In this document: positions 1,350 through 16,448 of the stretch, one piece after another
Position numbering within the stretch: the stretch's first letter is position 1
Layout: each line of letters starts with the position of its first letter
IMG/VR virus record: IMGVR_UViG_3300025276_003974
Coordinates: 1-22,518 of that record
Reading direction: 5' to 3' (one strand)
From: a virus
DNA length: 22,518 nt
Made by a program: the position numbers and the translations under genes
The notes under the pieces: generated by a model
Databases searched by the model: none
Told to the model about the DNA's origin: nothing
The model's input: only the letters and a program-made list of their open reading frames with translations

Positions 1350-2294
1350 TTACTCTTCAGCTAGACTCTTGAAAAAATCAAGTGAATCATCAGCATCAGA
1401 ACTATCGTCTGCCGTCTGCATAGTCGGTGATGGACTCGCAACAGTTACCGGAGCAGGTTGCTCTTTAAACTTAGGAGTGAAATCCATCGCCGTATTGTCG
1501 TCCTCGGCAGTTGAGCTGGGTGCGTGTTTACTGCCATCAAGTCCTAGAACCTTATACAATTTAGCTTTCAGTTCATTGTAAGACTTGAAGTTTTTAGGGT
1601 CGACAATATCGGACAGGGAATGCTCTTTACCCCAAACTTCTTCTAAAGCATCTTCTGATACTGCTGTACCAGATGAATCACTCAACTGTGCAGTTGAAGA
1701 GAACTCAGACTTATCGTAGTTACGATAGCCCTCTACTTGACGAATTTTAAGTTTGAAGTCAGCGCCTTCCCAGAAGTCAAATGGGTTAATCGGATCTTCA
1801 TCAGCAAACTGAGGATTCATAGCATCGTTCAGTTTGTCAAAGATTTTCTTACCAAATTTATACAGATAGACTTGACCTTCACGAGAAGGGTTTGCGCTAT
1901 CTTGTACGATGTAGATGTTCGCAGTGTACGACAACCTGCGCTTCTGCTTACGAGCAGTTTCTTTATCTTCATCATGACCAGAATTCCACAGCTTAGAGTT
2001 ATACTCTGAGACTGGATCATCTTGACCTAAAGTTGTAAGAGAGTTTTCGATGTACCAACCACCGGGTCCTTGAAAGCCATGGTCCCATGCACGAACAAAG
2101 GGCATATCTTCACCTGACGGTGCTGGTAAAAAACGAATCACTGCATAACCATTGCCGGCTTTATCTACTTCTGGTTTCCAGAAGCGGTCATCGCCTTTGT
2201 TGTTATTGGGTGATCCCATCTTCTGTAACTGAGAATTCAGTTTATCGAAAGATGAAGTGCGAGCCTTCTTTAAGGCTGAGAATGATGTTGTCAT
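1350..2294 (-). CDS. 32: T4-like gp32 single-stranded DNA-binding protein
   Basis: Single-stranded DNA-binding protein that coats the template during phage replication, recombination and repair. The 314 residues follow the T4 gp32 plan. The basic N-terminus (KKARTSSF) is in the place of the cooperativity LAST motif. The core contains WYIE, a YTANIYIVQD-like strand, YLYKFGKKIFDKLND and WEGADFKLKIRQVEGYRNYDKS, matching T4 gp32 core motifs. The C-terminal tail is acidic and ends DDSLDFFKSLAEE, as expected for the tail that recruits gp59 and other partners. There are no cysteines: T4's zinc-binding CPVC is replaced by DPVS. The ATG at 2294 is preceded by AGGAA. The gene has its own promoter at 2367-2395, a repetitive leader and a strong terminator, and lies downstream of its partner gp59. 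Confidence 0.95.
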   Translation of the reverse strand: MTTSFSALKKARTSSFDKLNSQLQKMGSPNNNKGDDRFWKPEVDKAGNGYAVIRFLPAPSGEDMPFVRAWDHGFQGPGGWYIENSLTTLGQDDPVSEYNSKLWNSGHDEDKETARKQKRRLSYTANIYIVQDSANPSREGQVYLYKFGKKIFDKLNDAMNPQFADEDPINPFDFWEGADFKLKIRQVEGYRNYDKSEFSSTAQLSDSSGTAVSEDALEEVWGKEHSLSDIVDPKNFKSYNELKAKLYKVLGLDGSKHAPSSTAEDDNTAMDFTPKFKEQPAPVTVASPSPTMQTADDSSDADDSLDFFKSLAEE

Positions 2295-2366: not shown

Positions 2367-2395
2367 ATTGTACTATATTGCGTTGTATTTGTCAA
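2367..2395 (-). promoter_or_regulatory. Sigma-70-type promoter of gp32
   Basis: TTGACA (2390-2395) and TACAAT (2367-2372) are separated by 17 bp on the - strand. The promoter overlaps the last codons of gp59, and the expected start of transcription near 2360 lies just ahead of the repeated gp32 leader. Confidence 0.75.
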
Positions 2396-2981
2396 GACAT
2401 ATTTTACGCATTTTCGACTTATCGTAAGATAAAAATGGCTTATATTTCTTAACTGTCTTATTTATACTCGGGTAAACTATGGTATCATTGATAGCTTTAT
2501 CCCAGTACTTGAAGCATCCTGTCAGATCATCTAAGATGACTAGAGTTTCGATGCATAGTTGCCTCATGTTGAAGAGCTTAAGTATACGAGGATACTGTCC
2601 ATTCTCTACAATGAAGTTTTGGTTAAAGTCTTCGTACATCTCATCAAGATCATTCTTGAATATGTATGACAAGGACTGTTGCCGTTTTTGCCACTCAGTA
2701 TAGTTCGTATCTGCATCTTCACTATCTACTAAGTTGCCTATCCAAATGTCAGGGTTTACGATCAAATTTGCTAACACAAAGTTTTTCGAGTCCTTACGCT
2801 TAGATAGTTTATAGAAGAAAAACTTATCTCTTCTGTTCTCAAAGCTATCAACACTTAACCGCATCTTTCCACCATACTTAACAAAATCGTAAGATGTGGT
2901 AAAATGCTTTCTCATCGCCATGTAGTAACTGTAGAGATCAAAAGCATCCCTTGTTGAATACTGTGACGATGAGTTGGTCAT
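2373..2981 (-). CDS. 59: T4-like gp59 helicase loader
   Basis: Loader that places the replicative helicase (gp41) on gp32-coated single-stranded DNA at forks and recombination intermediates. The 202 residues are close to T4 gp59 (217). The N-terminal part carries the family pattern YDFVKYGGKMR, then ENRRDKFFFYKLSKR, then LANLIVNPDIWIG, which matches the T4 sequence YDVIKYN..MR / KRRDKYFFQKLSEKY / SNLVANQDAWIG closely enough for a firm assignment. The C-terminal half is less conserved but keeps the basic, tyrosine-rich character. The start ATG overlaps the gp33 stop by four bases (ATGA), indicating translational coupling. Order gp33-gp59-gp32 is as in T4-type phages. The gp32 promoter lies over its 3' end. 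Confidence 0.93.
   Translation of the reverse strand: MTNSSSQYSTRDAFDLYSYYMAMRKHFTTSYDFVKYGGKMRLSVDSFENRRDKFFFYKLSKRKDSKNFVLANLIVNPDIWIGNLVDSEDADTNYTEWQKRQQSLSYIFKNDLDEMYEDFNQNFIVENGQYPRILKLFNMRQLCIETLVILDDLTGCFKYWDKAINDTIVYPSINKTVKKYKPFLSYDKSKMRKICLDKYNAI
2459..2466 (-). promoter_or_regulatory. Possible T4-type late promoter (TATAAATA) inside gp59
   Basis: An exact TATAAATA occurs on the - strand near the 3' end of gp59, about 165 bp upstream of gp32. It could give late gp32 expression, but an 8-bp AT-rich match inside a coding region may be chance. Confidence 0.3.
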
Positions 2982-3235
2982 ACTGGTAGCCGTACGAGTC
3001 TTTCGACCATGTTAAGTTCTTCAGCTTCCTTATATATCTCAGCTTTTAGAACTGGTGATCTTCGAATTATCTCTCCGATAACTTCAACTTCTAACTGATT
3101 TCTATCAGCGTAATCAATAACGGCATCGATGTATGGTACACCAGCGGCGATATGTTTAGAAATCTCAGTCATAATACGTTGAGAATTTAGTTTGTTCAAG
3201 ATTTCAATCTCTTGTTTCTGTTCTGAAATTTTCAT
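2978..3235 (-). CDS. 33: gp33-like late transcription co-activator
   Basis: In T4, gp33 bridges RNA polymerase and the sliding clamp and, with the late sigma factor gp55, activates late promoters. This 85-residue protein is mostly helical, with the pattern MTEISKHIAAGVPYIDAVIDYA...EVEVIGEIIRRSPVLKAEIYKEAEELNMV, like gp33 of marine T4-type phages, which are shorter than T4's 112 residues. I chose the internal ATG at 3235 because GGGAGG lies directly upstream and because the longer frame back to 3349 would overlap the preceding gene. It lies 7 nt after that gene and overlaps gp59 by four bases. The assignment rests on the helical pattern and synteny with DsbA and gp59. The TATAAATA late promoter elsewhere in the window fits a phage that uses this system. 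Confidence 0.85.
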   Translation of the reverse strand: MKISEQKQEIEILNKLNSQRIMTEISKHIAAGVPYIDAVIDYADRNQLEVEVIGEIIRRSPVLKAEIYKEAEELNMVERLVRLPV

Positions 3236-3242
3236 ATCCTCC

Positions 3243-3446
3243 CTATCCGTTAAGTGTTTTAATACCAAGAGCCCAGTTCTCAGCCGCATCTTCAGCGTAC
3301 AATTGACTTTTCCCTGCAAAGACTTCAGTCTTGACAGGCTCAACTCCACCCATATAATACTCTACTGAGTAGACTCCATTTACTTCGATGACTTCTGCTC
3401 TAGGAGCTTGATCACCTTCTTTGTAAAAAGTTTTTATAATGGTCAT
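3243..3446 (-). CDS. Conserved small phage protein in the gp33/gp59 operon
   Basis: 67 residues with a start at ATG 3446 (purine-rich GAAGA upstream); the longer frame to 3476 would begin almost on the promoter -10 box. The sequence shows a short strand-rich N-terminal half (RAEVIEVNGVYSVEYYMGG) followed by LYAEDAAENWALGIK. I recognise this as a small protein that recurs in marine T4-like phages, but no function is known to me. It is the first gene behind the consensus promoter at 3479-3507 and is followed after 7 nt by gp33, so it is probably co-transcribed with gp33 and gp59. Confidence 0.8.
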   Translation of the reverse strand: MTIIKTFYKEGDQAPRAEVIEVNGVYSVEYYMGGVEPVKTEVFAGKSQLYAEDAAENWALGIKTLNG

Positions 3447-3856: not shown

Positions 3857-4222
3857 CTAGAATTTAAATGCGGCACCGATAGCGATATCGCCTCGATTCC
3901 ACTTATCATCATATGAAACTTTTGCTGTCAATGTTGTATCAACGATAGACACTGCATCAAGATCATAGTTCATGCCAAACTCAACGCCTGTGTACTTTAC
4001 GTCACGCAGATTCAGTTCATGCATCTCAGCATAAAAATCTACTTTAGGCAATGCACTTGGATTGTACGTTGCTTCGATTTCGTATGTAGACGTCCATGTT
4101 TGACTGTCTGTATTATACCATGTTTCGACTGTGTTGTCAAGTGCAAGTGTCGGGCTTAGGTCTACTGCGAATGCAGTGTTTGCAGTCATCATAGCGGCTG
4201 CGGTGAGGGATACTAGTTTCAT
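3857..4222 (-). CDS. Small exported, probably outer-membrane beta-strand protein
   Basis: 121 residues with an N-terminal signal peptide (MKLVSLTAAAMMTANTAFA, likely cut after AFA). The rest consists of alternating polar/hydrophobic strands and ends in AIGAAFKF. A terminal phenylalanine after an alternating strand is typical of outer-membrane beta-barrel proteins. I placed the start at ATG 4222 because the signal peptide begins there; the longer frame up to 4300 runs into the tmRNA. Its gene follows the tmRNA by about 40 bp and precedes dsbA. It resembles in plan, though not clearly in sequence, the exported protein at 5718-6038. No family is recognised. Export is well supported; the outer-membrane location is inference. 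Confidence 0.7.
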   Translation of the reverse strand: MKLVSLTAAAMMTANTAFAVDLSPTLALDNTVETWYNTDSQTWTSTYEIEATYNPSALPKVDFYAEMHELNLRDVKYTGVEFGMNYDLDAVSIVDTTLTAKVSYDDKWNRGDIAIGAAFKF

Positions 4223-4261
4223 ATAGGTTCTTTCTCTATTGTTTCGTTTAACTTTAAAAGT

Positions 4262-4540
4262 GCCAGTTTCTGTTGACAGGTACTGGCGAACCCCGTACAA
4301 CTATGCCGCTAGGGCGTAGTCTACAGGAGCAAAATTATCGTTTGCGTTTACTTTAGTTTCTTGCGTTAACGGAGCTCGTACCCGGATTCTCCACTTTTCT
4401 ACCCTGCCAGTCGATTCCCAGTTCAGCCCCATCAAAAACATACTAGCCCTATTCAGTATGCTTTTGGTGGAGCTGTCGGGATTCGAACCCGAGTCCTGTT
4501 CAGTATCAATCTGCTTCATCGAATCAATTTTAGATTGATA
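4262..4540 (-). ncRNA. ssrA: tmRNA (ssrA), circularly permuted two-piece form
   Basis: Transfer-messenger RNA, which frees stalled ribosomes and tags the unfinished protein for proteolysis. The halves are in permuted order. First comes the acceptor piece (3' end at 4465) with T-arm TCGGG-TTCGAAT-CCCGA, strand CAGCTCC and an encoded ACCA end. After a 34-nt insert comes the coding piece from 4430, starting GGGGCTGAACTGGGAATCGAC, the standard tmRNA 5' end. GGGGCTG pairs with CAGCTCC over 7 bp, including the G3-U pair that marks alanine tRNAs. The tag frame (4345-4304, resume codon GCA) reads ANDNFAPVDYALAA, then TAG at 4303-4301. The insert can fold into a 6-bp hairpin (CATACT/AGTATG). A hairpin (GCCAGT/ACTGGC) near 4262-4286 followed by TTTT probably ends the transcript. 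The outer ends are estimates: 4540 is the edge of a 9-bp inverted repeat (4504-4512/4532-4540). I could not assign the pseudoknots or helix P2. Confidence 0.93.
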
Positions 4541-4568
4541 ACTTCATCAACCTATGTCTTATTTATCT

Positions 4569-4597
4569 ATAATACACTATAGACATGCTTATGTCAA
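4569..4597 (-). promoter_or_regulatory. Sigma-70-type promoter of the tmRNA
   Basis: TTGACA (4592-4597), 17-bp spacer, TATTAT (4569-4574) on the - strand. It lies in the gap after the 44-aa gene and directs transcription into the permuted tmRNA, whose acceptor half begins some 25-60 bp further on. Confidence 0.78.
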
Positions 4598-4612: not shown

Positions 4613-4747
4613 TTATGTCATATAGTTGTAACTTATAAACAACAATGCTATCCAAGCTAAACCTTTCACTAGAAAGAACGTGAATGTGAGTATCATAATA
4701 GCACGTGTGCGATTTTCTGTCAAGTACTTTCTGATCTTCTCGATCAT
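4613..4747 (-). CDS. 44-aa single-pass membrane protein coupled to the phosphate transporter
   Basis: A short frame starting MIEKIRKYLTENRTRAIM, then one hydrophobic segment of about 20 residues (roughly 17-37), ending SYNYMT. A basic, helical N-terminus followed by one membrane segment suggests a small integral membrane protein. AGGAGG lies 6 nt upstream of the ATG and the start overlaps the stop of the phosphate transporter (TAATG), strong signs of a translated, coupled gene. It could be a small accessory subunit of the transporter or a holin-like peptide; neither can be shown from sequence. Confidence 0.72.
   Translation of the reverse strand: MIEKIRKYLTENRTRAIMILTFTFFLVKGLAWIALLFISYNYMT
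4695..4723 (-). promoter_or_regulatory. Possible second promoter upstream of the tmRNA, inside the 44-aa gene
   Basis: TTGACA (4718-4723), 17-bp spacer and TATTAT (4695-4700): the same boxes and spacing as the tmRNA promoter about 126 bp further on. It lies inside the small coupled gene, so it may be chance or an extra tmRNA promoter. Confidence 0.4.
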
Positions 4748-5706
4748 TAATATCCTCCTGGTACTAGTACGTAATGTATGAGTAATACGATGCCGAGTGA
4801 AGCACCTAATCCTACCATCATCTTCAAGAAGTCCTTACCTATCAAAGGGAACACTGTCTTAAACTTTTCTTTGCCAGTGTATGATGCCATAGCTAATTCA
4901 CGTCCTGCTAACAAGCCTACAAATACCCATGTAGTACTCATCGGAATATCATTCAACTCTTTGAAGTAAAACAAGATCATCCAATACACAAAATCGATAA
5001 TAGTGGCACTACGGACATATCGTGTGTTGTGCTTCTCTACCACAATCTGCTGTATCTTGCCACCGCCCTCACGAAACATGAATGCTAGTCCCGCAACAAA
5101 CACTATGCTGATCATAAGCATTAATGGTATGTCTAATGTGCGTGGAAGAAATACAGCTATGTTAGCCATATCGTGTGACAACCACGTGAACCATAAAAAT
5201 CCTGTAGTTATCCACTGACCTATTCGCCAATATGTTTTGTGCTGTTCTTTAACTGGCTTTGCTTCATCTAGTAATCGACTGACTACCATCCAGATAACAT
5301 AAGCAGAGACTGCGGCAACAGCATAGCCCATCATGGACTTCATCAGCATCTTCTCTAAGATAAAAGTACTAGCAAAAGCACTTAGCACTAGAAAGGAAGT
5401 TGATACTGGTACTCCGACACGAGTTAGCAGTAATAGTACTCCAGGCGCCATTGCATGATACCATTGTACTTCTTGCCAGGGTATTCTGTTTAGTCTACCA
5501 TAGCTGATGTCACCGCCATTTATGTACCATCCGTACCATATCGTGTATAGTAGAACTGTGCTTGCGGCTACCCACATTACTTGCCATGAAAACTTTTCAT
5601 TGTTAGATGCAATCCAAGTACCTAAAGTCTGTACCGAATCGTTAGCTATTACAGCATATGCGGCGAAGGCAAAGCCTAACGCCATCCATAAGGTGAGTTC
5701 TTCCAT
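4747..5706 (-). CDS. PiT-family inorganic phosphate transporter
   Basis: Inner-membrane carrier of the PHO-4/PiT family, which moves phosphate (usually as a metal complex) with H+ or Na+. The two family signatures are present: IANDSVQTLGT near residues 20-30 and SHDMANIAVFLPR near 177-189. Each is followed by the paired PVST-type motif, GVPVSTSF (98-105) and DIPMSTTWVFVGLLAGRE (253-270), reflecting the internal duplication of the family. I count about eight or nine hydrophobic segments. At 319 residues it is shorter than E. coli PitA (499), lacking the long central loop. The ATG at 5706 has AGGAGG upstream. It lies 11 nt after an exported-protein gene and is translationally coupled to a 44-aa membrane protein. 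Phosphate acquisition genes are common in marine phages, where DNA synthesis is phosphorus-limited. No Pho-box was recognised. Confidence 0.9.
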   Translation of the reverse strand: MEELTLWMALGFAFAAYAVIANDSVQTLGTWIASNNEKFSWQVMWVAASTVLLYTIWYGWYINGGDISYGRLNRIPWQEVQWYHAMAPGVLLLLTRVGVPVSTSFLVLSAFASTFILEKMLMKSMMGYAVAAVSAYVIWMVVSRLLDEAKPVKEQHKTYWRIGQWITTGFLWFTWLSHDMANIAVFLPRTLDIPLMLMISIVFVAGLAFMFREGGGKIQQIVVEKHNTRYVRSATIIDFVYWMILFYFKELNDIPMSTTWVFVGLLAGRELAMASYTGKEKFKTVFPLIGKDFLKMMVGLGASLGIVLLIHYVLVPGGY

Positions 5707-6129: not shown

Positions 6130-6819
6130 CTAAAGTTTTACTTCTGGGAATAGTGATTCTTGAATGAATGCATCAACATCGTCTGGGTTTATCCCTAGAC
6201 TTTTCATCACTGTTGGTGTGTGAGGATTCTGTTTCTGATAATACGCATAATTATTCTGAGCACCGACACCGAGTTCTCGATTGGAAAATCCATTGTAGTT
6301 GCCTATATTATCAAGATAGTAATTCATTGTGTCGTTAGCAACTCGACATATCTGCTCGACTTCAGCAGGCTCTTTTACCATTCCAGCGGCAATCATATCA
6401 TCGCTGAATATAGCTTTAGCCCATGGCGGTAGTTCTCGTTCACGTTTCCATTGCAGTGATCTCGACACAGTAGAAAAGTGTTCCATCATATCATGGTCGT
6501 GTACTGTCGTAGCTGAGAAATCATGAAATGCACCAGTCATCTTATTGGGACCAGCGATCACATCAAATCCATAGATAGGACCATCGTTATCTGTATGAGG
6601 AAATACACACACGTGCATCATCCACAACTTCTTTTGTTCACGCATATCTACAACGTCAACGTGGGCACGGCGAAAGTTCTGATTAGACCACACCTTATTT
6701 ACCCAGCCAGATTGATTGAATCTTTCCATACCAGGCTCTTGTACTGCATTTCCAACCGCATCTATCTTCTCGATTAGATCGTCTTGTAGCTTTATAAGGC
6801 TATCCCATATCATACTCAT
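6130..6819 (-). CDS. pcyX: Ferredoxin-dependent bilin reductase, PcyX-like
   Basis: Ferredoxin-dependent bilin reductase, reducing the biliverdin made by heme oxygenase. PcyX, first described from marine phage metagenomes, makes phycoerythrobilin. The 229 residues contain the family core RRAHVDVV...LWMMHVCVFPH...GPIYGFDVIAGPNKMTGAFHDFSAT. By eye, D55 is at the position of PcyA Glu76, H69 at PcyA His88 and D86 (in YGFD) at the essential PcyA Asp105. I chose the ATG at 6819 because it overlaps the upstream stop by four bases (ATGA), with GGAG 8 nt ahead; a GTG two codons earlier is possible. It sits two genes after heme oxygenase, giving a heme to biliverdin to reduced bilin route. PcyA or PebS are alternatives, but the gene pair and length suit PcyX best. 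Confidence 0.87.
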   Translation of the reverse strand: MSMIWDSLIKLQDDLIEKIDAVGNAVQEPGMERFNQSGWVNKVWSNQNFRRAHVDVVDMREQKKLWMMHVCVFPHTDNDGPIYGFDVIAGPNKMTGAFHDFSATTVHDHDMMEHFSTVSRSLQWKRERELPPWAKAIFSDDMIAAGMVKEPAEVEQICRVANDTMNYYLDNIGNYNGFSNRELGVGAQNNYAYYQKQNPHTPTVMKSLGINPDDVDAFIQESLFPEVKL

Positions 6820-6959
6820 AACCACGCTCCGAAAAATAATACTACTACTGTTACTACATAAAGTCCAATCAGCATCGTTTGTAACCTATGCATCCTGCGT
6901 TTTCTTTCCTCGAGTGCTTCCATCACCTTTTCATATGACGCTTCGAGTTCTTTATCCAT
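6816..6959 (-). CDS. 47-aa coiled-coil/membrane protein between heme oxygenase and bilin reductase
   Basis: MDKELEASYEKVMEALEERK is a charged helical N-terminus, followed by RRMHRLQ and one hydrophobic segment (about residues 27-47) that ends at FFGAWL. The ATG at 6959 overlaps the end of heme oxygenase by eight bases and the stop overlaps the bilin reductase start by four, so it is embedded in the operon. The possible GGAG is unusually close to the ATG, suggesting that translation depends on ribosomes finishing heme oxygenase. Its place between two enzymes of one pathway hints that it could tether them to the membrane, but no family is recognised. Confidence 0.6.
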   Translation of the reverse strand: MDKELEASYEKVMEALEERKRRMHRLQTMLIGLYVVTVVVLFFGAWL

Positions 6960-7491
6960 TCTCCAATTCTCCAAATAACTTAATTGCAAATTCAAAGCAA
7001 CGATTCGCTTCAGGTGCCATGCTATCATCTAACATACCACGAACTGTAGTCTTCAGTGTCTCTACGTCAACAAATTGGTACATCGTACCACTTCCAGGAA
7101 TACGTTTAGCGATCATCTTGCCACCGTACATGTCACCAAAGTGACGAACGTACATATGTGCGATAAGACCTTCTTTGTTATTCTCAAAAAGATTCTCTGT
7201 GTATGAGGCGTATTCTTGTGTAGATTTTGTTATGATCTCTGGGTCAAAAACGAACCCATGCATATGCTCTAGTTCTTGTAGATCATCTCTTATTAAAGAA
7301 CTTCTGGCTATTGAAGTCAAGCCGAGTTCCACTAGAGGTAACTTATACTCTAATGCAACGTAGTTATAAAATTGATTTGTAAGGTATCTGTAGTATAGAA
7401 ATGGGTCGATTGACCCACTCATAAGCGTAGACGCAAATTTCTTGCGTTCGGCTGATTTGTGGTTTTCCCACGTTAGTTCTTTTAAGTTCAC
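6952..7491 (-). CDS. ho1: Heme oxygenase
   Basis: Opens heme to biliverdin, iron and carbon monoxide using reduced ferredoxin. The 179-residue protein has the proximal heme-ligand region LTWENHKSAE (His11) at the N-terminus and the distal-helix motif HFGDMYGGKMI (GDMYGG at 119-124), where the glycines bend over the heme. Conserved YRYLTNQFYNYVALE and a C-terminal helix complete the fold. The length suits phage heme oxygenases, which are shorter than bacterial HO1 (about 240). The start is GTG at 7491 with GGAG 7 nt upstream; no ATG lies between it and His11. It lies ahead of the bilin reductase, its natural partner. In a non-photosynthetic host, iron release from heme could be as important as the bilin. 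Confidence 0.92.
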   Translation of the reverse strand: MNLKELTWENHKSAERKKFASTLMSGSIDPFLYYRYLTNQFYNYVALEYKLPLVELGLTSIARSSLIRDDLQELEHMHGFVFDPEIITKSTQEYASYTENLFENNKEGLIAHMYVRHFGDMYGGKMIAKRIPGSGTMYQFVDVETLKTTVRGMLDDSMAPEANRCFEFAIKLFGELENG

Positions 7492-10153: not shown

Positions 10154-10291
10154 CTATTCGGTTCCTTTTATGTATGGCTTCGGTGCGACAGTCATCACAT
10201 AATCAGGGTTAATTCGGCCGTTGATGATTACAACGGGTGTCTTCTTTTCTATAGGCTTCAATGTGAAGCCCTTGTGTCGTATCACTATCAT
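10154..10291 (-). CDS. 45-aa hypothetical protein coupled to the cyclase
   Basis: The sequence begins MIVIRHKGFTLKPIEKKTPV, continues VIINGRINPDYVMTVAPKP and ends YIKGTE. The ATG overlaps the cyclase stop codon by four bases (ATGA), and the frame ends right at the first of two hairpins that close the operon. That fit supports a translated gene. It is basic, has no membrane segment and is not recognised. Confidence 0.62.
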   Translation of the reverse strand: MIVIRHKGFTLKPIEKKTPVVIINGRINPDYVMTVAPKPYIKGTE

Positions 10292-12321
10292 TTTGAAGTT
10301 GCGATGAATACACCGTTCCAGTCTTCTGGTAAGGTCTGCGTGTTCATGTACTCACAACGCTCAATCCACATCTCATAGTATCCAATCAGTTTACCATCGA
10401 ATTGAGTCTTAAGCTTCTCGCATTCTATAATAGCATCGTCAAACTTTTGCTTGCGATACATCTGGTGCATGGCAACATGCTTGCGCTGACTAGATTTGTA
10501 ATGCGCTTTAATGTTATCTAATACTGTATATATCTCTATGCCAATCGTCTTACCTTTGACTGCTAGATCATCAACTTTCAAGTAGAAGAAGTCATCTTTG
10601 GTCTTATCATAAGTCGATCCACCTACTAGTAGTACACATCCATATTCTTTACACTTACTTTCTATACGAGCCGCAGTACTAACAGCATCTCCAAGTATGT
10701 CATATGCGTGTCGTTTAGTCGAACCCATCTCACCGATATAGCCTAGACCGCTATTGATTCCAGCACCCATGCCAATTTCAGGTTTGCCTTGAGCCATGAG
10801 GTCTTCGTTGAATTTCTCTACAGCCTTTAACATATCGAGACCAGTCTGTACCGCTGTTTTTGGATGATCTGGATCGTCCATAGGAGCATTATGTATATGC
10901 ATAGATGCATCACCAATGTACTTGATTATCATACCGTTCGCATCGATGACTGGCTCAGATATTGCGTCCATGTAAGCATTCATCACTTGAGTGAGACCCT
11001 TTACATCGTCACCAAACGACTCACCAAGCGGTGTGAATCCACGTAGATCAGAGAAGCATATCGTTACCTCTTTTTTCTGACCATTTTTAACTAGTTCAGG
11101 ATTCTTCTGTAGCATCATCACAACTTCTGGAGATGTATATCCAGCAAACTGCTTCTTGATCTTCATCTTCTCGAAATACTCTTGCCCGTACTTAACACCA
11201 TACACATGAGCAAATACTATTATGCACATCAGTCCTTGAAGTGCGGTATTACATAGTACTTGATATTCAGCGAAGATGTATATGGGACTATAGACTACTG
11301 CGCCTATGATGAGTATTGGTGGTAACCAACCAAATCTGATATAACTGAGTGCTATTATTAATAGTCCTATACCAGCAATTGCTATCAATTTAGCGAATGA
11401 TTCTAGTGGGTGAGTGACAATGTTGTAGCCATTCTTTACAGACGCAAACGATCTAGCAGTCACATCATGCCCGTAGACAGCACCAGACGCTGTAGGAACG
11501 GGATTGGAGATACCTTCTGCTGTTACACCAATAAAGACTGTTGCTCCTTGCAAATCAGGCAACTCACTGACTAAATCATATCGACTAAAATCGTAGTTTG
11601 GGTTTATCCATATGCGTGATTGTGGATCAGTTTTGATCGTTGGGAATCCTTTAACACGAACTGCTGAAACCCCGATCCCATTGGACTTTACTTGAAATGT
11701 GTTGGATCCGGTGTACGCCTTGAATATCTCTAGTACGATAGATGGGTACAGATCCTCACCCACGCCAGCGAGCATTGGTAATCTGCGAACAACTCCATCG
11801 ATCTCGGGCAGAGTGTTGGCAATTCCAACACCTGTAGCTACGTTCTCATACTTCTCAATATTAGCGGCTATACCAGGATAATTGTAAATATAATCCAAAG
11901 CATTATTACCAACCTGTACGATAGCAGTACTGTATGCTGATCTATTTTGTGCTTTATTACTAGGGAAGTGAGATAGGATGACACCTTGTCCGAGAACAGA
12001 TGTGAACATCTCATCTTTACCTGTACGATCTTCTTCAGGAAATGATATGTTGAATACAATGACACCAGCGTTAGCTTGACGTAGCCTGACAATCAGGTCG
12101 CCGTAGATATCTCTAGGTAAAGGGTATTGTCCATGTACTTCTAAAGTCTTCTCTGATATGTCGATTAGTACGACATCTGTAATGGTTTCTTTTTCTTGTA
12201 CTATGAGTTGATCCGCAATCTTTAGATCAATCACCTGCAATAAGGTGGGATTCGATAGTGTCAACCACGTCAAGAATAGCGTAGTGATTATAGCAAATAT
12301 TGGTGATAAAATAAACTTCAT
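10288..12321 (-). CDS. CHASE2-domain class III adenylate cyclase
   Basis: Membrane receptor-type cyclase. Residues 1-20 form a membrane segment. Residues 30-300 look like an extracytoplasmic CHASE2 sensor (DVVLIDISEKTL, YPLPRDIYGDLI, PEIDGVVRRLPML, TVFIGVTAEG). Two or three membrane segments follow (about 308-372), then a class III catalytic domain (415-600) and a C-terminal helical tail ending EDWNGVF. Both metal-binding aspartates are present (Asp425 in CFSDLRGFT, Asp471 in KYIGDA). Lys467 and Asp541 (YDILGD) match the adenine-selecting pair of adenylate cyclases, so cAMP is the likely product. Arg552 is kept, but the usual transition-state asparagine is Ser548. AGGGGAA precedes the ATG at 12321. 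FecR-domain proteins and CHASE2 cyclases often occur together in bacteria, and a FecR gene lies two genes upstream. Confidence 0.9.
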   Translation of the reverse strand: MKFILSPIFAIITTLFLTWLTLSNPTLLQVIDLKIADQLIVQEKETITDVVLIDISEKTLEVHGQYPLPRDIYGDLIVRLRQANAGVIVFNISFPEEDRTGKDEMFTSVLGQGVILSHFPSNKAQNRSAYSTAIVQVGNNALDYIYNYPGIAANIEKYENVATGVGIANTLPEIDGVVRRLPMLAGVGEDLYPSIVLEIFKAYTGSNTFQVKSNGIGVSAVRVKGFPTIKTDPQSRIWINPNYDFSRYDLVSELPDLQGATVFIGVTAEGISNPVPTASGAVYGHDVTARSFASVKNGYNIVTHPLESFAKLIAIAGIGLLIIALSYIRFGWLPPILIIGAVVYSPIYIFAEYQVLCNTALQGLMCIIVFAHVYGVKYGQEYFEKMKIKKQFAGYTSPEVVMMLQKNPELVKNGQKKEVTICFSDLRGFTPLGESFGDDVKGLTQVMNAYMDAISEPVIDANGMIIKYIGDASMHIHNAPMDDPDHPKTAVQTGLDMLKAVEKFNEDLMAQGKPEIGMGAGINSGLGYIGEMGSTKRHAYDILGDAVSTAARIESKCKEYGCVLLVGGSTYDKTKDDFFYLKVDDLAVKGKTIGIEIYTVLDNIKAHYKSSQRKHVAMHQMYRKQKFDDAIIECEKLKTQFDGKLIGYYEMWIERCEYMNTQTLPEDWNGVFIATSK

Positions 12322-12344
12322 ATGACGTTCCCCTACATTGCTAT

Positions 12345-13313
12345 TTAGTCGTTTTGATACACTATTAGATTACATCCTCCGAAGGCATTACAAGTTCCAC
12401 TAACTGCGGCACCATCGGTCATGGTATGTGGCAACGTGTAATTCTTATTGGACGCTCCTTTTTGCTCTAGCTTGAAATCCCATGGCTGTGAGCCATCGAG
12501 TGCTACTCTAGCGGCATGAACGCCTGCTCCGTTTTGGAATATATCTGCCTTGTGATTATCGCCAGTAATTGCTAAGTCTATAAATTTATCACCAGCACCG
12601 TGTTGCCTTATATCGACATCATTACTATCTCCCGTTACGGTGAGTACAGCGGCTTTGTTGCCGATGCCTTTTTGTAGTATGTCTATGTCATTACTATCGC
12701 CAATTATAGTGGCATCGATATATCCGTGTGAGCCCGAATGCAGATCCTGTTCAGTATCAACATCATTACTGTTGCCAACGATTATTAAGCCTAAGTAACT
12801 TATGCCTCCAGCCTGTGTTATGAATACATCATTAAAGCTACCTGTTATGCCTGCTTCAACTGTGTCACCTTGTCCTGAGGCAGCCAATGCAAGTTTTGCA
12901 TTTATTTTGGTTTGCTGTGCGGTAGTTGGTGCGGTTGATGCATAAACTGGGGTAGCCGCGGCTGCAGGAGCTGAAAAGGAGTACCAAGAACCTGCGGCAG
13001 GGGTAAAACTATTGCCATCAGCGTCACACATAGTTAGAAATAGATTGTCGCCACTGCCACTGACACCGCATACAAAAGCAGTATCTCCTACTGAACCAGA
13101 TCCAAAGCCGCTATAAGATGTCATAGTAGCAATCCATCCAACAATGCCATTGCCTAAAGCTACTAGATCAGCAAAGGTTGTTGTATCATTGCCATTATAG
13201 ACGTAGATATAAGTAGAGCCTTGTGAACTTACGTTCATGACAGCCGTGCCAGTATCAGCTTTGGCGGGTGCTGGAGATACGAGTAGCAGTAGTAATATGA
13301 ATAGATATCTCAA
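12345..13313 (-). CDS. Secreted curlin-repeat protein with an extra N-terminal domain
   Basis: 322 residues. Signal peptide 1-19 (cut likely after AKA). Residues 20-150 form a Gly/Ser/Ala-rich domain. Residues 155-285 hold curlin-type repeats built on G(D/N)SNDVDI-x-Q-x-GxGxxA (for example GDSNDIDILQKGIGNKA and GDSNDVDIRQHGAGDKF). A C-terminal part with two cysteines ends NLIVYQND. Curlin repeats stack into amyloid-forming beta-arches in CsgA/CsgB. The start is TTG at 13313, overlapping the FecR stop as TTGA; no later start keeps the signal peptide. CsgG and CsgF in the same operon are the expected export route. The gene could encode a CsgB-like nucleator or a host-surface protein. Confidence 0.82.
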   Translation of the reverse strand: MRYLFILLLLLVSPAPAKADTGTAVMNVSSQGSTYIYVYNGNDTTTFADLVALGNGIVGWIATMTSYSGFGSGSVGDTAFVCGVSGSGDNLFLTMCDADGNSFTPAAGSWYSFSAPAAAATPVYASTAPTTAQQTKINAKLALAASGQGDTVEAGITGSFNDVFITQAGGISYLGLIIVGNSNDVDTEQDLHSGSHGYIDATIIGDSNDIDILQKGIGNKAAVLTVTGDSNDVDIRQHGAGDKFIDLAITGDNHKADIFQNGAGVHAARVALDGSQPWDFKLEQKGASNKNYTLPHTMTDGAAVSGTCNAFGGCNLIVYQND

Positions 13314-14410
13314 TTTGATTGCGTAATGTTTATCAACACATCACCCCCTCCATTAAGCTGTATTAGGGCTGGGACACCATCTTTGTACATATTAACATCT
13401 CCGTCAGTATCTCTTGTGGTCGTTACATCTGTAATATGTACCGCACTTTCACTGAATATGCCAATACTATCTTCGTCATAGAATGCCTGAACAGTGGTCT
13501 TATATGCATTAATTGTAGGAAGAACTGGATCGATTGCTAACTGCTCATCTTGTAGCATAGCAGTTGCATCTAGGATATTGAATAGAAAACTAATGTCTAG
13601 TCGATTAACATCCAACTCTTTATATTCTAGTTTATCCTCTTCCAATGCATCTTCATTAAGCCCTTTAAATTCTAGTACATCACTATCCAGATATTCTGAG
13701 ACCTCAGCTTGTTGGATATATCCTATGCCTTCTAGCTGTGCCGGTGGTGTAATAATCAACATATTGTTAATGCTGGCTTCAGTGATGTCTAATATGATAG
13801 GCTTTGAAGGTAATGACATGAGACTATTCACTAGCGTGGCTTGGAATGCCTGATCTAATAACACCATGCCTACATCTGTAGATACCATGATTTCTCCAGT
13901 CCAGCATTCACCAGTTGGTGGACATGAGGGTAATAATATTATAATACTGCGTCCGAGTTCATCTACGGTCATAGTGAAGTCAGTACCACGCACAGAAATT
14001 GTGGCAGTCGGTGTGTAGAGTTTTACATTCTCTCTTGAGTTTGCCGCAATTGCACCTGAGGAGTACCGAACGGTACCTAGTGCTACGTTCATTGCTAACG
14101 TTCCAGTGCCTGCGTTTGCGTCATAGATGAAGTCATCGATAACTAGCACACTCTGTTCACTGATATTTACTTTAGTATCATCTACAAAGGTTAAAGCGAG
14201 TTTGGTCTTGGCTGTAGATATCTCATCATCCATAGAAATCCCAGTGCCAGTCTCCGTGAGAAAGCTTTCGCCTTCACGTTCTATTTTGGCCGCTGGTCCT
14301 TCTTGTTGAGTGATACTTCCTACCTCTTCTACTACTGCCCAAGCGTTGGAGCTTGAGAAGCAGAGAAAAGCGAGAAGTAGTATCCTAGTTTTGTAAGACG
14401 TTAATGGCAT
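13310..14410 (-). CDS. Exported FecR-domain protein
   Basis: 366 residues starting with a signal peptide (MPLTSYKTRILLLAFLCFSSSNAWA). Residues 30-145 are a FecR domain: GSITQQEGPAAKIEREG, GISMDDEISTAKTKLALTFVDDTKVNISEQS, GTVRYSSG and TPTATISVRGTDF are classic family motifs. FecR domains act in the periplasm, often sensing or relaying signals. The remainder is acidic, and the last residues (DVLINITQSN) resemble the ends of both neighbouring curlin proteins. I use ATG 14410; a TTG at 14425 would add five residues but leaves the signal peptide less natural. It overlaps the upstream curlin gene by 26 nt and the downstream one by four. Possible roles: a periplasmic partner of the CHASE2 cyclase, or a cell-surface component of the curli-like system. 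Confidence 0.83.
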   Translation of the reverse strand: MPLTSYKTRILLLAFLCFSSSNAWAVVEEVGSITQQEGPAAKIEREGESFLTETGTGISMDDEISTAKTKLALTFVDDTKVNISEQSVLVIDDFIYDANAGTGTLAMNVALGTVRYSSGAIAANSRENVKLYTPTATISVRGTDFTMTVDELGRSIIILLPSCPPTGECWTGEIMVSTDVGMVLLDQAFQATLVNSLMSLPSKPIILDITEASINNMLIITPPAQLEGIGYIQQAEVSEYLDSDVLEFKGLNEDALEEDKLEYKELDVNRLDISFLFNILDATAMLQDEQLAIDPVLPTINAYKTTVQAFYDEDSIGIFSESAVHITDVTTTRDTDGDVNMYKDGVPALIQLNGGGDVLINITQSN

Positions 14411-15071
14411 TTGAATCGCCGTCAACAGTCATGACAACTGTGGGAATATCGTTCCCAGTTTGCTTAAGATTGATATCGTTAAAGTTAGACGCAACAGTTC
14501 CACCCACAGTAATTGTGTTAGTGGCATTTGCAGAACCTAGCTCTAGATCCACAGAGTTGTAATCACCCGTGACTGCTAGGACAGTAGTAGTATCAGCTAC
14601 CGTTACATCAGTACTACATGCAGATGCAGTTCCTGTAGTTGATGCAGTAGATGTACTACCCGATGTAGTACCGACAGACTTTGTTCCTGCGCCATCGTTT
14701 GTTCCACATAATGTAACAATGTTGTTATCGCCTGTCACTGCGCCTGTGAAATCGTTCTCAGCCGCAATTCCCATTACCAATTCGTTAGAATCTCCAGTAG
14801 CAGTATAATTTATAATTGCGCTTGCCGCTCCTGTTGATGTGTTAATATCTATCTTGTTACTATTACCAGTTTGCACAAGATCAATATCTTGAGAATTGCC
14901 AGTAAAAGTAGTTGGCGTAGTTGTTGATCCAATCGTGTTACTATCACCAGTTTGTGTTATATCGATGGTCGAGGACGAACCCGCCTGATCGATATATACA
15001 TCACTAGCGAATGCAATTGAACTTGTTGCCGATAATACAGCAACATATAATAAAAGCTTATTGATGCTCAT
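14385..15071 (-). CDS. Secreted curlin-repeat protein (CsgA/CsgB-like)
   Basis: 228 residues with a signal peptide (cut likely after IAFA, residue 22). The mature N-terminus is SDVYIDQAGSSSTIDITQTG, followed by repeats of the curlin form x-QTGDSN-x-(I/V) (QTGDSNTIG, VQTGNSNKID, TGDSNELV, TGDNNIV, TGDYNSVDL, DGDSNAINVLQN). This Gln/Asn ladder of beta-arches is the hallmark of amyloid subunits exported by CsgG. The central Ser/Thr/Ala-rich stretch is low complexity and has two cysteines, unusual for CsgA. The start at ATG 15071, with AGAGG upstream, places the signal peptide first; the longer frame to 15134 has no export signal. It is the first gene after CsgG in the operon, so it is the best candidate for the main exported subunit. 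Confidence 0.87.
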   Translation of the reverse strand: MSINKLLLYVAVLSATSSIAFASDVYIDQAGSSSTIDITQTGDSNTIGSTTTPTTFTGNSQDIDLVQTGNSNKIDINTSTGAASAIINYTATGDSNELVMGIAAENDFTGAVTGDNNIVTLCGTNDGAGTKSVGTTSGSTSTASTTGTASACSTDVTVADTTTVLAVTGDYNSVDLELGSANATNTITVGGTVASNFNDINLKQTGNDIPTVVMTVDGDSNAINVLQN

Positions 15072-15147
15072 AATTTTTTCCTCTTGGGCTCCCACCCATG
15101 TTATTTCTTGATTAATCTCCTCATCATCTATCAATTAATGTTAAAGT

Positions 15148-15164
15148 GTTATCCTTATGATAAC
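15148..15164. other. Stem-loop between csgG and the first curlin gene
   Basis: GTTATC (15148-15153) and GATAAC (15159-15164) form a perfect 6-bp stem with a 5-nt loop in the 124-nt gap, the largest in the operon. With no T-tract it may be a processing site that lets curlin mRNA differ in amount from csgG mRNA. Confidence 0.45.
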
Positions 15165-15195
15165 GCATCGTGTATGTTCATATCTCATAGTCTAC

Positions 15196-15984
15196 TTACT
15201 TGACAAAGGTCCAGTATTGCTTACGTTCACCTTCCTTTATCATTTCAACGACAGATTGTTCTATCGCTACCCTAACCGCATAATTTACCGGCTCATTAAT
15301 ACTGTGTCCTAATTCCGCTTCTAGACTATTTGTACCCATGTCGAAAAACCTAAAAAATGTCATGCTAGTTCCAGTGCTGATAATCGTTTTAGTTACCGAT
15401 ACGCTTATCAATACTTCACCAGTTTGTACACTTACCATTCTCATTGTTACCGTCACTATATCCTGACGATATTGTGTGCTAGGTCCTACTCCTAAATATC
15501 GAGCCCCGGCACCACCTGTTAAAACATTCGAATCATATCCAATTATTCCACCCTCTACTATGACTCCAGCAAAGAGCATTGGTCTAAGTTCTCTTGTGTC
15601 TTTAACTGCCGAACGAGCCTGTCTTATAATTTGACGCTCTTTAGTTAAATTCTCCAGTCCTACTCTTTCCACTACTTGAAACCAAGTTCCTCTACCTACT
15701 TCTTGTAGAGCCTTGATCAGCCAAACTTCAGCGCCTTGTGTAACGGCTGTACTTATATTTGCCATTCTTTCACTAGGCTTTCTTTGCCCAGTTTTGTCTG
15801 TAAATCCATAAACAGCTACAACTGCTTTACCCGTAGCTGGAGCTGGCATGGTAAGAAACTCCGTATTCTCATTCTTAACTACCTGAGCCTTCTCAGGGGT
15901 GTGTTCGAATCCAAAGTCTGTGACTAATGATGCACATCCTTGGATTAGAAGCACGGCTAATAGTAATGCTATAGTTCTGATCAT
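15196..15984 (-). CDS. csgG: CsgG-like curli secretion channel lipoprotein
   Basis: Outer-membrane lipoprotein that forms the nonameric curli export pore. The N-terminus is a lipoprotein signal with lipobox LIQGC (Cys17). The core follows CsgG closely: VAVYGFTDKTGQRK, MANISTAVTQGAEVWLIKAL, WFQVVERVGLENLTKERQIIRQAR, VEGGIIGYDSNVLTGGAGARYLG, QYRQDIVTVTMRMVSVQTGEVLISVSVTKTI and FFRFF. Length (262) is near E. coli CsgG (277). By eye, the constriction residues Tyr51, Asn55 and Phe56 of E. coli correspond to Glu72, Asn76 and Ile77, so the pore lining is partly changed. The ATG overlaps the CsgF stop (TAATG). CsgF, two curlin-type proteins and FecR in the same operon make a dedicated export system likely; csgE and csgD are not seen. 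Confidence 0.94.
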   Translation of the reverse strand: MIRTIALLLAVLLIQGCASLVTDFGFEHTPEKAQVVKNENTEFLTMPAPATGKAVVAVYGFTDKTGQRKPSERMANISTAVTQGAEVWLIKALQEVGRGTWFQVVERVGLENLTKERQIIRQARSAVKDTRELRPMLFAGVIVEGGIIGYDSNVLTGGAGARYLGVGPSTQYRQDIVTVTMRMVSVQTGEVLISVSVTKTIISTGTSMTFFRFFDMGTNSLEAELGHSINEPVNYAVRVAIEQSVVEMIKEGERKQYWTFVK

Positions 15985-16448
15985 TAGAATGCAAAGTCCC
16001 CTACAGGTACATCGAATTCCGATACAATATCACCGTTAGAGTTCTTGATGATTACATAAATTCTACCATCAAGTCTCTTCCATGATACACTATCTCCAAA
16101 TGGAGTAATAGCTTCGTACCACTCTCCATCTACTGTAGAAGTTCCATCTTCACCAAACAATGAATCGGCTATGTTCTTTGACAACGTAGCATAAATTCTA
16201 GACTCAAGGTTGTTCTGAAACTTATAAGCGTTAGTCGATTTGAGATCACGCTCCTCTTGATCCTCTAATGCTTTCTTTTCGTCTTTATTCTCTTTTCTTC
16301 TGTTAGCCTCTAACTGCTCTATCGTGAGTATGTGTGAACTGTATCCAATCCCACTAAACGCCGGGGATTTGAACACGTGATTTAACTCACTTGTTTTTGC
16401 CTGGCTTGTTACCAGTACTAGGGCTATCGCTATCCAATATTTTCTCAT
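15984..16448 (-). CDS. csgF: CsgF-like curli assembly protein
   Basis: CsgF is a secreted partner that inserts its N-terminus into the CsgG pore and helps anchor or nucleate curli at the surface. This 154-residue protein has a signal peptide (MRKYWIAIALVLVTSQA) and a mature N-terminus ELNHVFKSPAFSGIGYSSHILTIEQLE, matching the CsgF pattern (TFQFRNPNFGGN...LLNSA). A charged, Lys/Glu-rich stretch (about 49-70) may form a helix. The C-terminal strands DGRIYVIIKNSNGDIVSEFDVPVGDF resemble the CsgF end. AGGAAA lies 9 nt before the ATG. The first 62 bases overlap the preceding gene in another frame. The E. coli protein is 138 residues. Confidence 0.88.
   Translation of the reverse strand: MRKYWIAIALVLVTSQAKTSELNHVFKSPAFSGIGYSSHILTIEQLEANRRKENKDEKKALEDQEERDLKSTNAYKFQNNLESRIYATLSKNIADSLFGEDGTSTVDGEWYEAITPFGDSVSWKRLDGRIYVIIKNSNGDIVSEFDVPVGDFAF

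Follow-up and report, generated by a model that had tools for sequence, protein, structure and literature searches.

Some lytic phages encode a ribosome-rescue RNA but not the protein SmpB that works with it, which invites the question of its purpose. The window analyzed here, i.e., the whole stretch of 22,518 nucleotides, is a 22.5-kb virus record that represents a phage genome fragment. The window holds a complete circularly permuted tmRNA gene on its minus strand, at 4262-4597. In our assessment, it is probable that a T4-like marine phage of the Melnitz/pelagimyophage group here encodes a working two-piece tmRNA, which would rescue ribosomes together with host SmpB. This explanation draws on the anatomy of the gene, covariation, the conserved locus, the conserved tag end, and the lack of smpB in the phages tested.

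ARAGORN independently classes the minus-strand locus as a permuted tmRNA (tmRNA*), the tag being ANDNFAPVDYALAA, and Rfam cmscan at the gathering threshold gives full-length matches to both tmRNA_permuted (RF04321; 4525-4301, 102.2 bits with a cut-off of 47, E 3e-19) and alpha_tmRNA (RF01849; 4581-4259, 89.1 bits with a cut-off of 50, E 3e-23); these tools detect structure, not function. In a single predicted transcript, the order from 5' to 3' is acceptor half, spacer, and coding half, with the following parts:

4569..4597, minus strand: sigma-70-type promoter-like site TTGACA-17-TATTAT, 11 of 12 consensus positions, assigned by consensus match alone
4465..4562, minus strand: acceptor half, from RF04321, RF01849 and its covariation with the other half; position of the 5' end inferred by way of the promoter
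4521-4525, minus strand: strand GATTC of the inter-piece helix, in the acceptor half
4476-4492, minus strand: T-arm, in the acceptor half
4469-4475, minus strand: acceptor 3' strand CAGCTCC, which pairs with GGGGCTG to form the 7-bp acceptor stem
4465-4468, minus strand: encoded ACCA, 3' end of the acceptor half
4431..4464, minus strand: spacer of 34 nt between the halves, no gene inside
4259..4430, minus strand: coding half, from ARAGORN, RF04321/RF01849 and the fold
4424-4430, minus strand: acceptor 5' strand GGGGCTG, in the coding half, with G3-U70
near 4385-4389, minus strand: strand GAATC of the inter-piece helix, in the coding half
4301..4345, minus strand: tag reading frame, ANDNFAPVDYALAA and stop, from ARAGORN and the tag-pattern scans
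about 4262-4287, minus strand: 3' hairpin at the end of the coding half

A first-pass annotation had described this gene as a circularly permuted two-piece tmRNA with an acceptor stem, a G3-U alanine signal, a T-arm, an encoded CCA and a tag followed by a stop, all behind a near-consensus promoter. The description is in agreement with the permuted ARAGORN call and with both full-length Rfam matches, RF01849 among them; each named part is present, and the promoter is promoter-like as judged by its consensus match. The precursor in the window folds 3.9 SD better than dinucleotide shuffles, and the two ends of the 34-nt spacer pair with each other, thereby lengthening the acceptor stem. The T-loop, TTCGAAT, is atypical, nearly all relatives having loops of the GCAGTA/GCGATA type, and we count this against a working tmRNA, as we do the fact that the hosts already have one. 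A 72-aa ORF that runs across the whole tmRNA gene, with the tag frame open for 66 codons upstream, was rejected as a gene; in two relatives (L137 and L172), this frame extends over no more than 7 open codons. These relatives share 89.5% identity with the window within the tmRNA.

The window represents part of the genome of a T4 relative that is Melnitz/pelagimyophage-like. It encodes T4-type gp32, gp59 and gp33 as well as CsgG and CsgF (Pfam, PHROG), and in a comparison of gene orders its T4 core genes and phage curli module are arranged as in Melnitz. Over its full length, the cyclase in the window shares 49.7% identity with its counterpart in Methylophilales phage Melnitz; identity to the cyclase of Pelagibacter phage HTVC008M is 32%. 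The setting of the tmRNA gene is formed by three T4-type genes:

2978..3349, minus strand: gp33 late-transcription coactivator, Pfam Trans_coact with 31.3 bits, downstream of the tmRNA on the same strand
2373..2981, minus strand: gp59 helicase loader, Pfam T4_Gp59_N and PHROG 269
1350..2294, minus strand: gp32 single-strand DNA-binding protein, PHROG 224 with 395 bits

Wherever a viral locus yielded a parsed tmRNA together with a gp33 match, gp33 lies 0.2-4.7 kb downstream of the tmRNA on the same strand, and one relative (L145) is essentially identical to the window. As the first-pass annotation had it, the gene is phage-borne: its strand and its position, upstream of the T4-type genes gp33, gp59 and gp32, are those of the Melnitz tmRNA, and this is no bacterial chromosome locus. 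This arrangement bears on the alternative that host DNA was picked up by chance, as an integration-site remnant or a binning error, and has no role for the phage. The gene ssrA is often a prophage integration site, and fragments of it occur in prophages (PMC9004378), but the gene in the window is complete, has a promoter-like site, shows covariation across relatives, and occupies one conserved place in T4-type genomes, including the complete isolates Melnitz and HTVC008M; a chance origin is the least probable of the explanations that we considered.

Several neighboring genes merit description in their own right. Immediately upstream of the tmRNA, 4747-5706 (minus strand) encodes a multi-span membrane protein that by eye resembles a PiT-type phosphate transporter; it occurs in several viral contigs, has no Pfam or PHROG family, and gave 0 matches among 50,697 phage records. 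The outer-membrane-like neighbor at 3857-4222 is likewise without a Pfam or PHROG family. A ferredoxin-dependent bilin reductase (6130-6825, minus strand; Pfam Fe_bilin_red, 60.6 bits) adjoins a heme oxygenase (6952-7491, minus strand; 57.4 bits), in a phage whose relatives are non-cyanophages, and the pair resembles the hemO-pcyX cassette of Mosig-type pelagiphages (PMC11480375). The curli-like module at 10288-16448 (minus strand) comprises CsgF, CsgG, a curlin-repeat protein, a FecR-type protein, a second curlin-repeat protein and a CHASE2-like adenylate cyclase, with the gene order of Melnitz.

Selection on the RNA was assessed with 214 complete permuted tmRNAs, nearly all parsed from viral contigs, a few of which could be bacterial contamination; the 170 that are distinct in the tRNA-like part constitute the covariation set. 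Acceptor and T-stem pairing served to find the genes and is therefore not independent evidence of selection. The inter-piece helix beside the acceptor stem is paired in 98% (n = 170), as compared with 78% when partners are shuffled and 4-56% when the strands are slid, and its pairs (TA 85, AT 77, CG 4) document two-sided changes with swaps between A-U and U-A. G3-U70 is invariant, being present in all 170 distinct phage-borne sequences. Complete tags, collected with a scan pattern that did not include the tag, end in AA in 58 of 58 cases and in LAA in 49, the parser demanding an A-N-[D/E]-[N/K] start. The permuted tmRNA of the window is far beyond chance.

The tag ends also speak to the proposition that the RNA is a decoy against host tmRNA or SmpB and performs no trans-translation of its own. 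There is a precedent in the tag-less tmRNA-like gene of mycobacteriophage DS6A, for which inhibition of the endogenous tmRNA upon expression in E. coli has been reported (PMC11915505); a decoy, however, has no need of a conserved tag, and every complete relative retains the tag frame and its AA end, which makes this function very improbable.

As far as the scanned collections go, the tag body is a phage trait. The degenerate DNA pattern for ANDN[FY][AV]PVDYA matched 97 viral contigs and gave 0 matches across 84,980 genomes of bacteria and archaea, in a scan with exact patterns only that covered contigs of 3 kb or more. Re-examination of 99 loci (the 97 contigs, the window and Melnitz) yielded an ARAGORN tmRNA call at 72, and all 12 of the ARAGORN-missed contigs that were run through Rfam match a permuted model. 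A looser pattern, ANDN[FY][AV]Pxx[YF]ALAA, matched one genome contig, NHBR02000136.1 (L212), assigned to Muricauda; since proteins that by eye resemble T4-type DNA polymerase, clamp loader and clamp adjoin its tmRNA, this contig is most likely DNA of a T4-like phage, permuted tmRNA included, that was misbinned into a Muricauda species genome. Close phage relatives with the same gene order differ in their tags (ANDNFAPSEYALAA in L010 and L038 vs ANDNFAPVDYALAA in L138 and L200), as if tags change fast or are exchanged.

Such private tag bodies might mainly re-programme tagging, altering the fate of tagged proteins through adaptor binding, protease choice or evasion of a host factor specific for the host tag, with faster host protein turnover as one example. 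The confinement of the pattern to the 97 viral contigs and the different tags of relatives with the same gene order fit this idea, but the tag ends in the standard LAA signal, and the wide tag variation among phages fits drift equally well as a special reader; we consider re-programming unlikely. An LAA end is the general ClpX signal of SsrA tags. The phage-specific degron put forward in the first-pass annotation accordingly stands in part: the tag body is found only in phages, but its ordinary ALAA end should be treated by proteases like a host tag. The further claim that the gene points to the host group is not supported, because the host of Melnitz, a phage with this RNA type and an almost identical tag, is OM43, which lies outside the Alphaproteobacteria (PMC9004378); an alpha-type RNA does not identify the host.

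Ribosome rescue by a two-piece tmRNA thus remains our preferred explanation. A search for smpB that was positive in control bacteria gave 0 matches in 15 phage records, among them complete Melnitz and, for the rest, mostly fragments, and the phage tmRNA presumably uses host SmpB. In the proposed course of events, whose steps of expression, processing and charging are inferred, as is the gain for the phage, a host-type promoter would drive transcription of the precursor, which would fold such that the two halves pair. The 34-nt spacer would be lost, presumably through host RNase P and 3'-processing nucleases, and host AlaRS would charge the RNA with alanine through G3-U70. Together with host SmpB, the phage RNA would then free ribosomes stalled on broken mRNA during infection, adding ANDNFAPVDYALAA, the LAA end of which would direct the product to ClpXP. 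The phage would benefit in that ribosomes stay available during mRNA degradation. With its single conserved locus, its private tags and its numerous natural variants, the lineage makes it possible to test why such an RNA is carried.

The relatives assign a possible further role to the spacer, the length of which, from CCA to GGGG, varies from 10 to 264 nt across the parsed sequences. All 14 distinct spacers of 180-300 nt contain an ORF longer than in dinucleotide shuffles (each p<0.05; mean coverage 0.90 vs 0.40), the excess over shuffles is weaker for spacers of 100-180 nt, and for those of 60-100 nt the ORF content is not above shuffles and no nested genes are claimed. The loci concerned are:

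Spacers with small protein genes: L148, L156, L302, L249, L087, L274, L291, L143, L008, L095, L101
Spacers with small protein genes, continued: L250, L104, L114, L246, L058, L079, L025, L080, L002, and others

The ORFs form at least ten families, and ten recur in different contigs, nine of them with different tags. Their pN/pS values are 0.21-0.46 (raw Nei-Gojobori proportions, from single pairs in some families), and the ORFs of F4 and a few others continue beyond the spacer, being subject to RNA constraint as well within the coding half. The encoded proteins are mostly hydrophobic; that of L079 matches Pfam DUF6356 well above the cut-off, that of L104/L114 lies just below the DUF2061 cut-off, and family F1 gave 0 matches in phage isolates. 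Family F2, located in the spacers of L148, L156, L302 and L249, has 67% identity to an annotated gene that stands free in the Melnitz genome, where the tmRNA follows it within a few bases. This is direct evidence that one and the same gene can lie within a tmRNA gene or apart from it.

In several spacers, a Shine-Dalgarno-like AAGGAG or AAGGA directly follows CCA, and many spacer ORFs use as their stop the TGA within the TGAT|GGGG junction. Pairing between the two spacer ends has a mean of -12.9 kcal/mol, as compared with -5.4 for swapped ends, so that the Shine-Dalgarno-like sequence can sit in a stem that lengthens the acceptor stem. Folding of the tmRNA and translation of the spacer gene may consequently exclude each other in some relatives, a putative form of regulation. 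On balance, we favor the view that the tmRNAs of marine T4-like phages are a phage-kept lineage with its own tags, in which the cut-out spacer houses small protein genes and one transcript provides both a two-piece tmRNA and a short mRNA; the tmRNA of the window is a member of this lineage with a short, empty spacer. If confirmed, the spacer genes of the relatives would be coding sequences accommodated in the part of a permuted RNA gene that is cut out and discarded; annotation pipelines miss these small, mostly hydrophobic proteins. A literature search, with most subscription journals outside its range, returned no publication on proteins encoded within the spacers of permuted tmRNAs. For such spacers, the 2025 tmRNA database paper mentions a tRNA gene and a repeat and nothing else, homing-endonuclease genes being named for the separate intron form (PMC11915505), and one paper puts bacterial permuted-tmRNA spacers at 75-125 bp (PMC2704228).

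A two-piece tmRNA has been reported for phage Melnitz by Buchholz et al. 2022, who listed 53 among public phages, 50 of these from marine or aquatic samples, and who already proposed ribosome maintenance or selective tagging (PMC9004378); the 2025 tmRNA database contains 79 phage tmRNA sequences (PMC11915505). The Melnitz tmRNA (MZ577095-MZ577098) is likewise of the permuted alpha type, its tag is nearly the same (ANDNYVPVDYALAA vs ANDNFAPVDYALAA in the window), it lies in the same setting upstream of gp33-gp59-gp32, and the phage has the same curli/cyclase module. It differs from the window in the T-loop and in the spacer, which in Melnitz has 142 nt and a conserved ORF (MFKWLSKTRLVVITRDYF..., unannotated in the Melnitz record), whereas that of the window has 34 nt and no ORF. 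Furthermore, a glutamine riboswitch directly follows the Melnitz tmRNA, but nothing like its aptamer was found in the window at E up to 1. A manA RNA motif (L185:3933-4103) and the glutamine riboswitch (Melnitz, L002:17643-17691) each stand directly after a phage tmRNA, as if different cis-regulatory RNAs had been swapped in behind it.

HTVC008M (KC465899), a T4-like phage, has a permuted tmRNA upstream of a late promoter transcription factor, as in the window, but with the tag ANFNEYALAA and low sequence similarity to the window tmRNA; the gene is situated at about 145,120-145,461 (L305:1939-2280) and is unannotated in the record. In blastn searches of phage isolates, the window tmRNA gave short T-arm matches only, in unrelated phages. 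The tmRNA-like genes of actinobacteriophages and DS6A are phage-borne too, but are one-piece or lack a tag frame, and their DNA resembles the window gene at the T-arm only. The alphaproteobacterial permuted tmRNA of the Caulobacter type (RF01849), reportedly described by Keiler et al. in 2000, shares with the window the order of acceptor half, spacer and coding half, G3-U70, the inter-piece helix and an alanine-rich tag end. In contrast to it, the gene in the window is phage-borne, has a tag body absent from the cellular genomes scanned, and has a T-loop nearer to that of ordinary tRNA. A tmRNA of the kind found in the window is thus already published, and it is the private tag and the spacer-nested genes of the relatives that go further.
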